In this document: in pieces, positions 29,229-54,050 of the stretch | Layout of the letters: each line of letters begins with the position of its first letter | Position numbering within the stretch: position 1 is the first letter of the stretch | Source: Acidobacteriaceae bacterium | GTDB lineage: Bacteria; Acidobacteriota; Terriglobia; Bryobacterales; Bryobacteraceae | Assembly (NCBI GenBank): GCA_019240405.1 | Contig: JAFAYL010000035.1 | Coordinates: 1 to 64,000 of the forward strand | DNA: 64,000 bases | Reading direction: 5' to 3' | The notes under the pieces: generated by a model | Databases searched by the model: none | Told to the model about the DNA's origin: nothing | Seen by the model: the letters and a program-made list of their open reading frames with translations, nothing else | Made by a program: the position numbers and the translations under genes

Positions 29229-32200
29229 ATGCGTTGGTTCCGCAGACGAGAACGCGACAAGGATCTGGAGCGCGAGTTGCGTTCCCATCTGGAACTCGAG
29301 GCCGAAGAGTTGCAGCAGGACGGTGCCTCTGCGGAAGAGGCTCGCTATGCAGCACGGCGCTCCTTCGGCAACCCGACCCTAATCAAAGAAGACACGCGCA
29401 GCATCTGGACAGGAATATCGATCGAGCGCCTTTGGCAGGATACTCGCTTCGCACTGCGCACGACGCGAAACCATCGTGGTAGCACCGCTATCGCAGCGCT
29501 CACGCTCGCGCTCGGGATCGGCGCGAACACCGCAATTTTCAGTGTTGTAAATACAGTTCTCCTTGCGCCTCTGCCATACAAAGACGCTGATCGGCTGATG
29601 ACAGTGTGGGGTTATAACCGGTCGCGCGGATTTAACACCGATCAAGTATCAGCGCCGGATTTCGCGGATTGGAGGTTGCAAAATCACGTCTTCGAAGACT
29701 TGGCTGCTTCCACCGATGTCATGTACACGCTGACCGGCTCCGGGGAACCGATGGCCATTATCGGTTATCGCTTCTCGGCAAACTTCTTTCACGTTCTCGG
29801 AGTCGCGCCTCTGCACGGCCGCACGTTCTTTCCAGCGGAACAGCAACCCGGAAAAGATCACGTCGTGGTGTTGGGTTATCAGCTATGGCAGAGCCGTTTC
29901 GGCGGAGACCGAAGCATGGTTGGAAGGACAGTCAGGCTGGATGGCGCGCCGTACACCGTAATCGGCGTCATGCCGCGGGGAGTCGATTACCCCGGGACAG
30001 TTCAACTATGGACCCCACTCACCATCCCGCCCGAAGCTATCCACGATCGCGCTTACCGTTTCCTCCGCATGCTGGGCCGGTTGAAGCCGGGCGTGAGCAT
30101 CAACCAGGCCCAGACCGAGATGAACGCCATCGCACGCCATCTTGCGCGCGAATATCCGAAGACGAATAAAGAAGAAGACGCCATCAATATCATCAGCCTT
30201 CGACAGATGATCAGTGGCGATATTCGTCCCGCTCTGCTCGTACTGATGTGCGCTGTTGGTTTCGTGCTGTTAATCGCATGCGCGAATGTTGCCAATTTGT
30301 TGCTCGTGCGAGCCGTGGACCGGCGCAGGGAAGTCGCTATTCGGGCGGCTCTCGGGGCTGCAGGCCCGAGACTCATACGCCAGTTCCTGACGGAAAGCAT
30401 TCTGCTCGCCCTCGCTGCCGGAGCACTCGGCTTATTGCTCGCCTTCCAGGGCACAAGAGCGTTGGTTGCGCTCTTTCCACCAACCATTGCGAACCTCAGC
30501 ATCCCGCGAATAGATCAAATCCCGATTGACTCCCATGTGCTTGGTTTTTCGCTCCTCGCTTCATTGCTCGCCGGCACCATCTTCGGGTTGATCCCCGCAT
30601 TCGAAGCGATGCGCTCAGATACAGGCGAGTCATTGAAGGAGTCATCCCGAACGTCGACCGGCACCATCTCGGGACGCCGTTTTCGAAGTGTGCTCGTAAC
30701 TCTTGAAATTGCGCTGTCTCTCATCTTGCTGGCTGCCGCGGGCGTGACCTTAAAAAGCTTTGCCCAGCTACTACGAGGCAATTTAGGCTTCAATCCTCAA
30801 AACGTGCTGACCGCGCGTCTCATGCTGCCGCCCTTGAAGTATGAAAGTGAAGCGCAACAGCTTGCCTTTGGCAACCAGGTTGCCGATCGCGTTTCATCGC
30901 TGCCGGGTGTCCAATCGGCAGGAACCGTCACGTTTCTTCCTCTCAGCGGATGGTGGGGGACTCGTAACGTGTCAATAGCCGCCGGATCAGACGCCAATCA
31001 GCAACGAGACGCAGTGTGGAGTTCAGTAACGCCTGACTACTTTCGCGCCATGGGCATTCCGCTGATTGAAGGCCGTTCCTTCACGAAATACGATGACGCA
31101 GCCGCCGTGCCAGTTGCGATTCTCAGCATAACGTTTGCGCGCCGGCTCGTATCGAATGAGAATCCCCTGGGCAAGCGCCTCAAAGTAGCCGGCCTCAAGT
31201 CTAACGTCGAGGTGATCGGCGTAGTCGGCGATGTCCATCAATTGGGAATGACTTCCGATGTGACATCAGAAATCTATTTCCCGTTTTCGCAGGTTCCAAC
31301 TCCGCTCCTCTGCTTCGCAATCCGGACTGCTGGCTATCCAATGAACTTGGCTAATGCCGTCGAGCGGCAAATCTGGGCGATAGACAAAGACCAGGCAGTC
31401 TCGTTCGTAATGCCCATGGCCGACCTGGCCTCAGAGTCGCTCGCGCCTCAGCGCGTGATCAGTATTCTTCTCGGAATTTTCGCTGTGATGGCCCTGATCA
31501 TGGCTGCGGTTGGTATCTACGGAGTTATCTCCTTTGCGACCGCTCAGCGCACGCAAGAAATTGGTGTGCGGATCGCCCTAGGAGCTCACTCCGGTGATGT
31601 CCTGAAACTCATCGCAGGACAAGGGCTGCCGTCCGTCGCAGTCGGCTTGGCGTTGGGCCTTGCAGGGTCAGTTGGATTGATGCGGTTTCTTTCCAGCCTG
31701 CTGTACGGTGTGCGTCCGGCAGATCCGTTGATTCTGGCGATTGCTGCGGCGGCCCTCGTTACATCCGCCTTATTGGCCAGCTATGTTCCAGCTCACCGAG
31801 CGGCCAAACTCGATCCGACAGTTGCGTTGCGACACGAATACGATCTCCCTGTTATAATCCACTTTCGAATGTTCTGCTCCAAACTCACTTTAAGCTTCTT
31901 GCTCATCTTCGGGATCGCCAACGCTGCGCCTGCAGAAGAACGAAAAACAATCACTGGCTGGGTTTTAGATTCAGCTTGTGCCTTCACGAAAGGCCTCGAT
32001 AAACCGATCAGCCGCGATTGCGCGCTTGCTTGCGCCCGAAAAGGTTCGCCTCTAGTCATTCTTCAAGACGACGGAACCGTCTTCTGGCCGATCTCCGAAT
32101 CGATGCCGGCTGCCGGCCAGAATGATCGGCTTCTGCCATACGCAGGCAAACGCGTCACCGCGACCGGGAAGGTCTACTCGAAAGGTGGGTCGCAAGCCGT

Positions 32201-32234
32201 GGTGATTGAGAAGCTAACTGCCGCAAATCAGTAA
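29229..32234 (+). CDS. ADOP-family permease read through into a secreted domain
   Basis: 1001 residues. The first 870 form a complete ADOP permease: cytoplasmic leader (ELRSHLELEAEELQQDGAS), RGSTAIAALTLALGIGANTA, two MacB-like periplasmic domains and two FtsX-type helix blocks, closing with the usual family end KLDPTVALRHE at 31838. Instead of a stop the frame goes on (TAC at 31839) through 10 residues into a small exported protein (FCSKLTLSFLLIFGIANAAP and onward) with its own ATG at 31869. The simplest reading is a lost stop codon that fused two genes; the extra domain would then be periplasmic after the last helix. Start is one base after padR. Confidence 0.88.
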   Translation: MRWFRRRERDKDLERELRSHLELEAEELQQDGASAEEARYAARRSFGNPTLIKEDTRSIWTGISIERLWQDTRFALRTTRNHRGSTAIAALTLALGIGANTAIFSVVNTVLLAPLPYKDADRLMTVWGYNRSRGFNTDQVSAPDFADWRLQNHVFEDLAASTDVMYTLTGSGEPMAIIGYRFSANFFHVLGVAPLHGRTFFPAEQQPGKDHVVVLGYQLWQSRFGGDRSMVGRTVRLDGAPYTVIGVMPRGVDYPGTVQLWTPLTIPPEAIHDRAYRFLRMLGRLKPGVSINQAQTEMNAIARHLAREYPKTNKEEDAINIISLRQMISGDIRPALLVLMCAVGFVLLIACANVANLLLVRAVDRRREVAIRAALGAAGPRLIRQFLTESILLALAAGALGLLLAFQGTRALVALFPPTIANLSIPRIDQIPIDSHVLGFSLLASLLAGTIFGLIPAFEAMRSDTGESLKESSRTSTGTISGRRFRSVLVTLEIALSLILLAAAGVTLKSFAQLLRGNLGFNPQNVLTARLMLPPLKYESEAQQLAFGNQVADRVSSLPGVQSAGTVTFLPLSGWWGTRNVSIAAGSDANQQRDAVWSSVTPDYFRAMGIPLIEGRSFTKYDDAAAVPVAILSITFARRLVSNENPLGKRLKVAGLKSNVEVIGVVGDVHQLGMTSDVTSEIYFPFSQVPTPLLCFAIRTAGYPMNLANAVERQIWAIDKDQAVSFVMPMADLASESLAPQRVISILLGIFAVMALIMAAVGIYGVISFATAQRTQEIGVRIALGAHSGDVLKLIAGQGLPSVAVGLALGLAGSVGLMRFLSSLLYGVRPADPLILAIAAAALVTSALLASYVPAHRAAKLDPTVALRHEYDLPVIIHFRMFCSKLTLSFLLIFGIANAAPAEERKTITGWVLDSACAFTKGLDKPISRDCALACARKGSPLVILQDDGTVFWPISESMPAAGQNDRLLPYAGKRVTATGKVYSKGGSQAVVIEKLTAANQ
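31829..31858 (+). promoter_or_regulatory. Possible internal promoter before the fused secreted domain
   Basis: GCGACA (four of six bases of the -35 consensus), an 18-base spacer and a perfect TATAAT at 31853-31858. It lies inside the 3' end of the ADOP frame and 10 bases before ATG 31869, which would give an almost leaderless transcript for the secreted domain and the selenoprotein behind it. Sequence match only. Confidence 0.3.
31869..32234 (+). other. Secreted-domain segment inside the ADOP fusion
   Basis: From ATG 31869 the same frame encodes 121 residues that would stand alone as an exported protein: signal peptide LTLSFLLIFGIANAAPA, then TITGWVLDSACAFTKGLDKP, ISRDCALACARKGSPLVILQ, and RLLPYAGKRVTATGKVYSKG. 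Three cysteines (DSACAF, SRDCALACA) are spaced for a metal or disulfide site. Small secreted proteins of this pattern occur in Acidobacteria without known function. It ends 12 bases before the selenoprotein, so it may share a redox role with it. Whether it is made alone, as a fusion, or both cannot be told from sequence. Confidence 0.6.
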
Positions 32235-32246
32235 AGTTACGCTCCT

Positions 32247-32993
32247 ATGGCAAAGTCTTCAAAGTCAACACTCGCCGGTCGGCTCCTGAAAATCGCCACT
32301 TTCGTCCTGTCGGCCTATTTCATCTTGATGGCCGGTTTCGCGTTTGCCATGCGCCAGCCGCCTGAAACATTCGCTCGCGTAATGAAGCATGTGGGCCCGG
32401 CGCCTTTTCTGCTGTTTCCCTTCGAAAGCATGTGGAAGAGCGCCCGTCAAGGACATGTCCACGTCGGAAACACAGCCCCTGATTTCACGCTTCCTCTGCT
32501 CGATCATTCAGGTCAGGTCACGTTGTCATCCTTCCGCGGCGTGAAACCGGTGGTTCTCGTCTTCGGAAGCTACACTTGACCGCCATTTCGCCGGGAGGTT
32601 CCCGCGCTCAACAAACTCTACACCGATTACAAGGATCAAGCCGCCTTCTATGTCGTGTACATTGCTGAGGCGCATCCCACCGACATCTGGCAGATGGAAA
32701 GCAATGTGAAAGAAGGCGTCCTGTTCCGCAATCCGACCACCAACTCCGAGCGCGAACATGTCGCGGACTCTTGCGTTCGCAAGCTCCACATCGCATTTCC
32801 AGCTCTGATCGATTCCATCGATAATCACGTCGAGAAAGCCTATACCGGCTGGCCCGATCGGCTGTTCCTCGTAGGCACGGATGGACGAGTGCGCTTCAAG
32901 AGCGAACCCGGACCCTTCGGCTTCAATCCCACCAATCTCGAAAAAGCTCTGTCAAGCGAGATACCGCGGCCAACATTGGCCAGCGCTCGTTAA
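32247..32993 (+). CDS. Deiodinase-like selenoprotein (in-frame UGA = Sec111)
   Basis: 248 residues when TGA 32577-32579 is read as selenocysteine. Both sides are in the same frame and both are conserved: VVLVFGSYT before it and PPFRREVPALNKLYTDY after it. The resulting GSYTUPPFR matches the iodothyronine-deiodinase active site (GSCTUPPF), and VYIAEAHPTDIWQM matches the deiodinase-specific EAH segment. A signal-anchor helix (about 16-34) and a redoxin opening (VHVGNTAPDFTLPLLD) come first, so the active site should face the periplasm. Bacterial members are likely thiol-dependent peroxidases or reductases; true deiodination is not implied. A hairpin follows the UGA and a tRNA-Sec is at 53827. 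If UGA were a stop, a 110-residue fragment without an active site would result. Its end overlaps the convergent gene by four bases. Confidence 0.9.
32577..32606 (+). promoter_or_regulatory. Candidate bacterial SECIS hairpin after the UGA
   Basis: Directly after UGA (32577-32579) the mRNA can form CGGGA-GGU-UCCCG (stem 32592-32596 with 32600-32604), extended by two pairs (32589-90 with 32605-06) past a bulged C at 32591. The GGU apical loop starts 18 bases from the UGA, the distance and loop type known for SelB-binding elements such as fdhF. Within a coding region, so some pairing could be chance. Confidence 0.6.
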
Positions 32994-52809: not shown

Positions 52810-53835
52810 GTGTTCATCGACGAAGTCACAATCACCGTCAAAGCGGGCGACGGCGGGAACGGGTGTCTCGCGTTTCGGCGTGAAAAATATGTCCCGCGAG
52901 GTGGTCCGAGCGGTGGGGATGGCGGTCGCGGCGGTGACGTCGTTCTGGTTTCGAGCGAGCACTATAACACGCTACTTCATTTCCGCTTCAATCCCGAGCA
53001 CATGGCGGAGCGCGGGCGGCATGGTGAGGGAAGTAACCGAACCGGCCACGACGGCGCCTCGATTGAAGTGCCCGTCCCGGTAGGCACAATAGTTTATGAC
53101 GCGGCTAGCGGTGAGCAGCTCTTCGACTTTACTGCTCCCGGGCAACGTTTCACAGCGGCTCGCGGCGGGCGCGGAGGACGTGGCAACGCGCGATTCGCCA
53201 CTTCGACGCACCAGGCCCCAACAGAGCACGAACAAGGGCATCCGGGCGAATCCTTCAAATTGCGCCTTGAGCTGAAACTACTCGCGGACGCCGGGCTCGT
53301 CGGATTCCCGAACGCCGGTAAATCGACGCTCATCTCGCGACTTTCCGCCGCGCGCCCGAAAATTGCAGATTATCCGTTCACCACGCTCGAACCCGGTTTG
53401 GGAGTTGTTCAGGCCGGAGATCACAGCTTTGTGCTCGCCGACATTCCAGGGCTGATCGAAGGCGCGCACGAAGGCCATGGCTTGGGAATTCAGTTCTTGC
53501 GGCACATTGAGCGCACGCGATTGCTTGTGCACCTCGTCGATGTTTCCGATTTCACCGGACGCGACCCAGGTGAAGACTTCGACATCATTCTTCGCGAGCT
53601 TGCGGAATTCAGTCCCGAGCTTGCGAAGAAGCCCATGATTGTAGTGGCCAACAAAATAGATGCTTGTCAGGATGCGTCGCGAGTCGAAGCGGTGCGCCCG
53701 AAAGCCATCGAGCACAATCTACCGTTCTTGGAGATCTCGAACGTAACAGGGCAGGGAATCGACGAACTTCGTTATGCCATCAGCTCTGCGCTATTGGGAA
53801 GCACCACGCAGGATACAATCTCGGTCGGAAGCTAA
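52810..53835 (+). CDS. obg: Obg GTPase
   Basis: 341 residues from GTG 52810. The Obg fold, with Gly-rich [20 protein letters not shown] and [20 protein letters not shown], is followed by the G domain: Walker [32 protein letters not shown] with the G3 DxxG site, and NKID ([10 protein letters not shown]). It binds the large ribosomal subunit and links (p)ppGpp level to ribosome assembly, fitting the Rel gene in this window. No C-terminal OCT domain is seen, so it is the short form. Its last codons GGA AGC TAA are the first 9 bases of the tRNA-Sec gene. Confidence 0.96.
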
Positions 53836-53920
53836 ACTCTGCCGGTGCAGGGCCCGGTCTTCAAAACCGGAGTGCGGCACATTTGCTGTTGCGGGTGGGT
53901 TCGACTCCCATTAGCTTCCG
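53827..53920 (+). tRNA. selC: tRNA-Sec (selC), anticodon UCA
   Basis: Acceptor GGAAGCTA pairs with TAGCTTCC (8 bp). The D arm has a 6-bp stem closed by a CGGT tetraloop (CTCTGC/GCAGGG), longer than in normal tRNAs. The anticodon stem-loop is CCGGT-CTTCAAA-ACCGG with anticodon TCA; the variable arm is long, with GCGGCA and TGCTGT as strands; the T loop is TTCGACT. The 8+5 acceptor/T arrangement is that of bacterial tRNA-Sec. G is the discriminator and CCA is not directly encoded (CCCA follows). It begins inside the obg stop region and matches the UGA-containing gene at 32247. Confidence 0.95.
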
Positions 53921-54050
53921 CCCAGCTCTCGGCTTCGCGGCTCACAACGGCGTTCAAAGAGGCGCTGCGGTTTTCCAGAGTTCGACTGCGAGAGATGTTT
54001 GTTCTCGCGAGTCTCACTGCGCTACGGCTTCCACACGCGTCGCGAATACT

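Follow-up and report, generated by a model that had tools for sequence, protein, structure and literature searches.

Deiodinase-like selenoproteins of bacteria were first described in 2005 from the Sargasso Sea as Sec- and Cys-containing proteins with a bacterial SECIS, and their describers expected a redox role outside thyroid hormone metabolism (PMC1088965). The GOS survey of 2008 counted 22 Sec and 21 Cys forms in a table that we read as listing no second-Cys motif (PMC2398784), and a 2026 review includes bacterial deiodinase-like selenoproteins with their motif given as UxxC (PMC13188914). The animal deiodinases themselves are composed of a membrane region and a catalytic core (PMC11592359). 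We found no open-access paper that combines deiodinase, Acidobacteria and selenocysteine, and no description of a deiodinase-like selenoprotein from Acidobacteriota in that literature. The protein described here is encoded in a 64,000-nucleotide stretch of an Acidobacteriaceae genome (henceforth the window) and shares with the Sargasso Sea and GOS proteins the PF00837 domain, an active-site Sec with Cys homologs, a bacterial SECIS and, as far as the GOS table goes, the lack of a second-Cys motif. However, those proteins are known from marine metagenome reads, whereas the clade of the window's protein comes from Acidobacteriota genomes and has a conserved N-terminal anchor; its UPPF motif also differs from the UxxC of the 2026 review. 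The family has thus been known since 2005, and what is new here is a clade from Acidobacteriota that is anchored in the membrane, has a frozen SECIS and lacks conserved gene neighbours.

The source assembly (4.45 Mb, 96% complete) has Terriglobia/Acidobacteriaceae MAGs as its closest named relatives. Translated with TGA as selenocysteine, the gene is a complete coding sequence of 248 residues at 32247 to 32993 of the forward strand that ends with a TAA stop and has full-length homologs. Its sole interruption is the TGA at 32577 to 32579 (forward strand; codon 111) in the motif GSYT-U-PPFRRE, so that the unbroken frame as well as the GSYT-U-PPFR and EAHPTDIW segments reported in an earlier note on this DNA are all borne out by the translation. 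Under translation table 11, the gene is split into an ORF of 110 aa (32247 to 32579) and another of 112 aa with a GTG start (32655 to 32993), exactly the two fragments that the note had expected from standard gene finding, and this supports its concern about mis-annotation. A 100-aa antisense ORF overlies the selenoprotein gene (32526 to 32828, reverse strand), and in 11 relatives of the gene-order comparison antisense ORFs outrank the broken sense frame; automatic annotation may therefore choose the wrong strand.

Upstream, a MacB/FtsX permease frame (29229 to 32234, forward strand) continues without a stop into a 121-aa tail resembling a secreted protein, which has an ATG at 31869 and a Cys-rich DCALAC segment, lacks any family match and ends 12 bases before the selenoprotein start; this tail may be a fusion, the result of a lost stop or a separate gene. 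The 415-aa gene downstream of the selenoprotein gave no family above cut-off in a profile search. Across the 19 loci compared for gene order, no partner gene is common around the selenoprotein, not even within the genus, and gene order therefore gives no hint of the substrate.

The case for decoding of the UGA is primarily comparative. Among loci from relatives and a phylum sample, TGA stands at the identical codon in 28 distinct sequences (including the window), and the homologous loci of Acidobacteriota keep it; Cys takes its place in more distant homologs (FGSYTCPNFR and similar), and Gly in one. Compared to 17 relatives, pN/pS is 0.23 to 0.46 after the TGA and 0.20 to 0.65 before it, indicating that both sides are under coding selection and that the downstream half is under purifying selection. 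Alternatively, the gene could simply be broken, with the TGA as a true stop followed by a decaying remnant or as a sequencing error that altered a Cys codon, and it is indeed true that the ORF is formally interrupted and that one relative has Gly at this site. Yet homologs keep both the TGA and a conserved downstream half, its recurrence in 28 distinct sequences excludes a sequencing error at 32577, the SECIS is conserved and covarying, and the Sec machinery is present in the genome (see below for both). We thus consider a broken gene to be extremely improbable and refuted by the comparative data, and the UGA of this Terriglobia (Acidobacteriota) gene is, judging from the sequence comparison, almost certainly read as selenocysteine, as the earlier note had proposed. 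Two individual loci deviate from the common pattern. One (L033/L091 of G025) reads GGA (Gly) at the Sec codon although its SECIS hairpin is intact, which suggests either that the catalytic residue was lost recently or that the MAG contains a base error. The other (L093/L038 of G029) has a frame shift soon after the UGA, so that the sense half goes on in a different frame, and may be a pseudogene or the product of an assembly error.

Bacterial SECIS elements form a hairpin directly after the UGA with a G in the apical loop, and this loop lies 16 to 37 nt away from the codon. A hairpin had been claimed within 20 bases of the UGA, and we find it at 32592 to 32604 (forward strand) with the stem CGGGA/UCCCG and a GGU loop (32597 to 32599) that starts 17 nt after the UGA. 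Codons +5 to +8 (CGG GAG GTT CCC) show zero synonymous change in 18 aligned sequences, of which one has GCT (Ala) instead of GTT; elsewhere, the mean heterozygosity at comparable conserved codons of four- and six-fold degeneracy is 0.61 (permutation P = 4e-5). More divergent loci carry compensatory stem changes, e.g., L097 has C-G for the A-U pair of 32596 and 32600 and L099 has C-G for a G-C pair, and none of 500 shuffles reached the observed stem covariation. Sliding the stem by +1 raises the covariation score slightly, but the share of paired cells is then 54% compared to 88%. L101 to L103 have GGUC loops at 17 nt, and in L100 the GGU loop lies at 21 nt on an entirely different stem of 7 bp, although the minimum-energy fold of the whole segment differs. 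When the window's sequence is folded singly, the hairpin does not stand out from shuffled sequence (z = -0.22), resampling of synonymous codons per sequence gave a weak signal (median P of about 0.16), and Rfam has no relevant match at the hairpin. It is therefore the cross-species comparison, i.e., freezing and covariation, and not single-sequence folding that decides the case, and by this comparison the hairpin behaves as expected of a bacterial SECIS that is frozen at synonymous sites and covaries in distant loci.

The decoding machinery is encoded in the same genome. A tRNA-Sec with TCA anticodon had been placed 21 kb from the gene and was found by ARAGORN at 53827 to 53922 (forward strand), and selA (508 bits), selB (363 bits) and selD (349 bits), whose absence would have spoken against a selenoprotein, are all present above their cut-offs. 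Among 16 genomes with the Sec form, selB was not found in 4, all of them fragmented MAGs; since 50 of 60 relatives have selB, its co-occurrence with the gene says little. On another contig of the window's genome (G000:C47:3051-5855, L104), a formate-dehydrogenase-like gene contains a UGA in frame within ENQARIUHSS and, 18 nt behind it, a hairpin with the loop GGUCU. Although it scores below the cut-off of the Fdh-alpha family, this gene is by its sequence a probable second selenoprotein. Other genomes encode a second family that is distantly related and about 520 aa long (L042 and L044 in G040 and G047); its redoxin-like domain carries the motif NGCLT-U-PPFIRNV, and an EF hand lies at the C-terminus. 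Similar matches occur in G041, G044, G045, G049 to G051 and G055, and those of several genomes have one in-frame TGA; the family was not found in the window's genome.

The assignment to the deiodinase family made in the earlier note is right at the family level. PF00837 (T4_deiodinase) matches with E = 5.7e-27 and 95 bits against a gathering cut-off of 27, ahead of AhpC-TSA and Redoxin, and the best phmmer matches among solved structures are Dio3 (1.3e-16) and Dio2 (9.2e-15). The AlphaFold2 model (pLDDT 93.9, pTM 0.89) combines an N-terminal helix of 30 residues and three further short helices with a domain of thioredoxin fold, for which Foldseek and VIA-align give as closest folds mouse Dio2 and Dio3 (PDB 9h48 and 4tr3; Z 21.0, rmsd 3.0 and Z 20.7, rmsd 3.2, respectively, each with 171 aligned residues), followed by ResA (Z 18.5) and AhpE (Z 18.0). 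The catalytic domain spans residues 73 to 235 (32463 to 32951, forward strand) according to the PF00837/AhpC-TSA matches and these structure comparisons. The hydrophobic helix at residues 6 to 35 (32262 to 32351, forward strand) is a probable signal anchor, and Lys/Arg in front of it suggest that the N-terminus is most likely inside and the catalytic domain outside, facing the periplasm. NF038285 (deiodinase_rel) matches each of the 18 members that were tested, but the window's protein scores 205.3 bits, below the cut-off of 250, and covers only positions 177 to 340 of the 347 in the model; that name would therefore not be assigned even to the joined frame. NF038285 and the Cys homologs of Acidobacteriota share the catalytic domain and the FGSYT[U/C]P and EAH motifs with the window's protein, but the latter homologs have Cys in place of Sec and mostly longer frames (many about 480 to 580 aa) with other sequence in front. 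Taken as a Sec-containing redox enzyme of the deiodinase family, the protein is classified with high confidence.

The active site retains much of what is known from animal deiodinases. The EAHPTDIW segment (residues 141 to 148; 32667 to 32690, forward strand) contains Glu141 and His143, which match the loop-D edge residues of Dio proteins in the alignment with Dio3, and E141, A142 and H143 are invariant in 38 Sec/Cys homologs. The network of Dio2 consists of Ser127, Thr129, Tyr157, Glu160, His162 and a sixth member, His182, and roles of the loop-D His and of an Arg/Lys substrate clamp in Dio2/Dio3 have been described (PMC11592359). In the phmmer alignment with Dio3, Ser108, Thr110, Tyr138, Glu141 and His143 correspond to the first five of these network residues and are conserved in homologs. 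However, Dio2 His182 (Dio3 His219 by the numbering of the alignment) corresponds to Thr165, the clamp Arg275 of Dio3 (Dio2 Lys241) to Pro221 and Phe258 to Pro203, while the proximal and distal deiodinase Cys align with Tyr109 and Pro185. Pro203 is invariant in homologs and sits at what we take to be the position of the thioredoxin cis-proline. Compared to Dio2/Dio3, the window's protein thus has the same layout of N-terminal membrane helix and thioredoxin-fold core but lacks these substrate-site residues and both Cys at the Dio positions, and its SECIS is bacterial and lies within the coding sequence. On sequence grounds, the machinery for selenol activation is kept and the hormone-binding features are not, so that the term deiodinase-like of the earlier note holds for ancestry and fold but not for the residues with which Dio2/Dio3 bind iodothyronine. 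Deiodination of thyroid hormone, the reaction of the animal enzymes, is therefore not supported by the predicted site and should not be assumed. A true reductive dehalogenase that would reduce C-I or C-Br bonds of small halogenated aromatics in the way of animal deiodinases could be proposed from the nearest fold, the kept Ser/Thr/Tyr/Glu/His proton relay and a UPPF motif identical to Dio3, but the three replacements, the lack of recognised dehalogenation genes beside the selenoprotein gene and the commonness of same-family Cys homologs in the phylum make this unlikely.

From the kept activation machinery and the lost hormone-binding features we infer a membrane-anchored, periplasm-facing selenol reductase or peroxidase of the peroxiredoxin/ResA type. 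Through recognition of the hairpin whose GGU loop lies 17 nt behind the UGA, SelB with Sec-tRNA(Sec) would have selenocysteine inserted at residue 111 instead of termination. The product would be anchored in the cytoplasmic membrane by its single N-terminal helix, and its thioredoxin-fold domain would most probably lie on the periplasmic side, where the Sec111 selenolate, activated by the Ser/Thr/Tyr/Glu/His network common to deiodinases, may attack a small oxidised substrate such as a hydroperoxide or another selenol-reactive oxidant. The resulting selenenic acid or selenenyl-sulfide might then be reset by an outside thiol or, in the window's clade, perhaps by the conserved Cys176. This residue hardly varies within the clade and among Cys homologs but is missing in the outer Sec forms L100 to L103, and its resolving role is therefore uncertain. 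We give a substrate of the peroxidase type about an even chance. A ResA/TlpA-type thiol-disulfide reductase acting on periplasmic protein disulfides, e.g., in cytochrome c maturation, would fit the membrane anchor, the invariant Pro203 and the next-best structural matches to ResA and DsbE-like proteins (Z of about 18). However, ResA has a CxxC motif (and AhpE is a soluble 1-Cys peroxiredoxin), whereas every Sec form of the clade has UPPF with Phe at +3 and neither CxxC nor UxxC, and no common neighbour genes point to such a role. Lacking the CxxC partner, the protein is not a classical disulfide exchanger of the thioredoxin type, and we regard the ResA/TlpA function as rather unlikely.

In a tree of 165 columns, the window's clade holds together with 22 rows of Sec forms and the one with Gly (support 91/87), 24 Cys proteins form another group (83/70), and 4 changes are required to explain the distribution of Sec and Cys. 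The two mouse Dio cores are placed beside L100 among the Sec forms of Acidobacteriota (93/69) on a very long branch, and because of the weak support and this long branch their placement is only a hint. That the Acidobacteriota Sec clade would be both a living relative of the stock of animal deiodinases and a membrane-bound reductive dehalogenase of environmental organohalides seems very unlikely to us. The locus encodes a selenoprotein with good support whose gene is cut into two by gene finders, and its bacterial homologs, which are full-length, membrane-anchored and from sequenced genomes, form a base on which the origin of animal deiodinases and the ancestral chemistry of the deiodinase selenium site could be tested.
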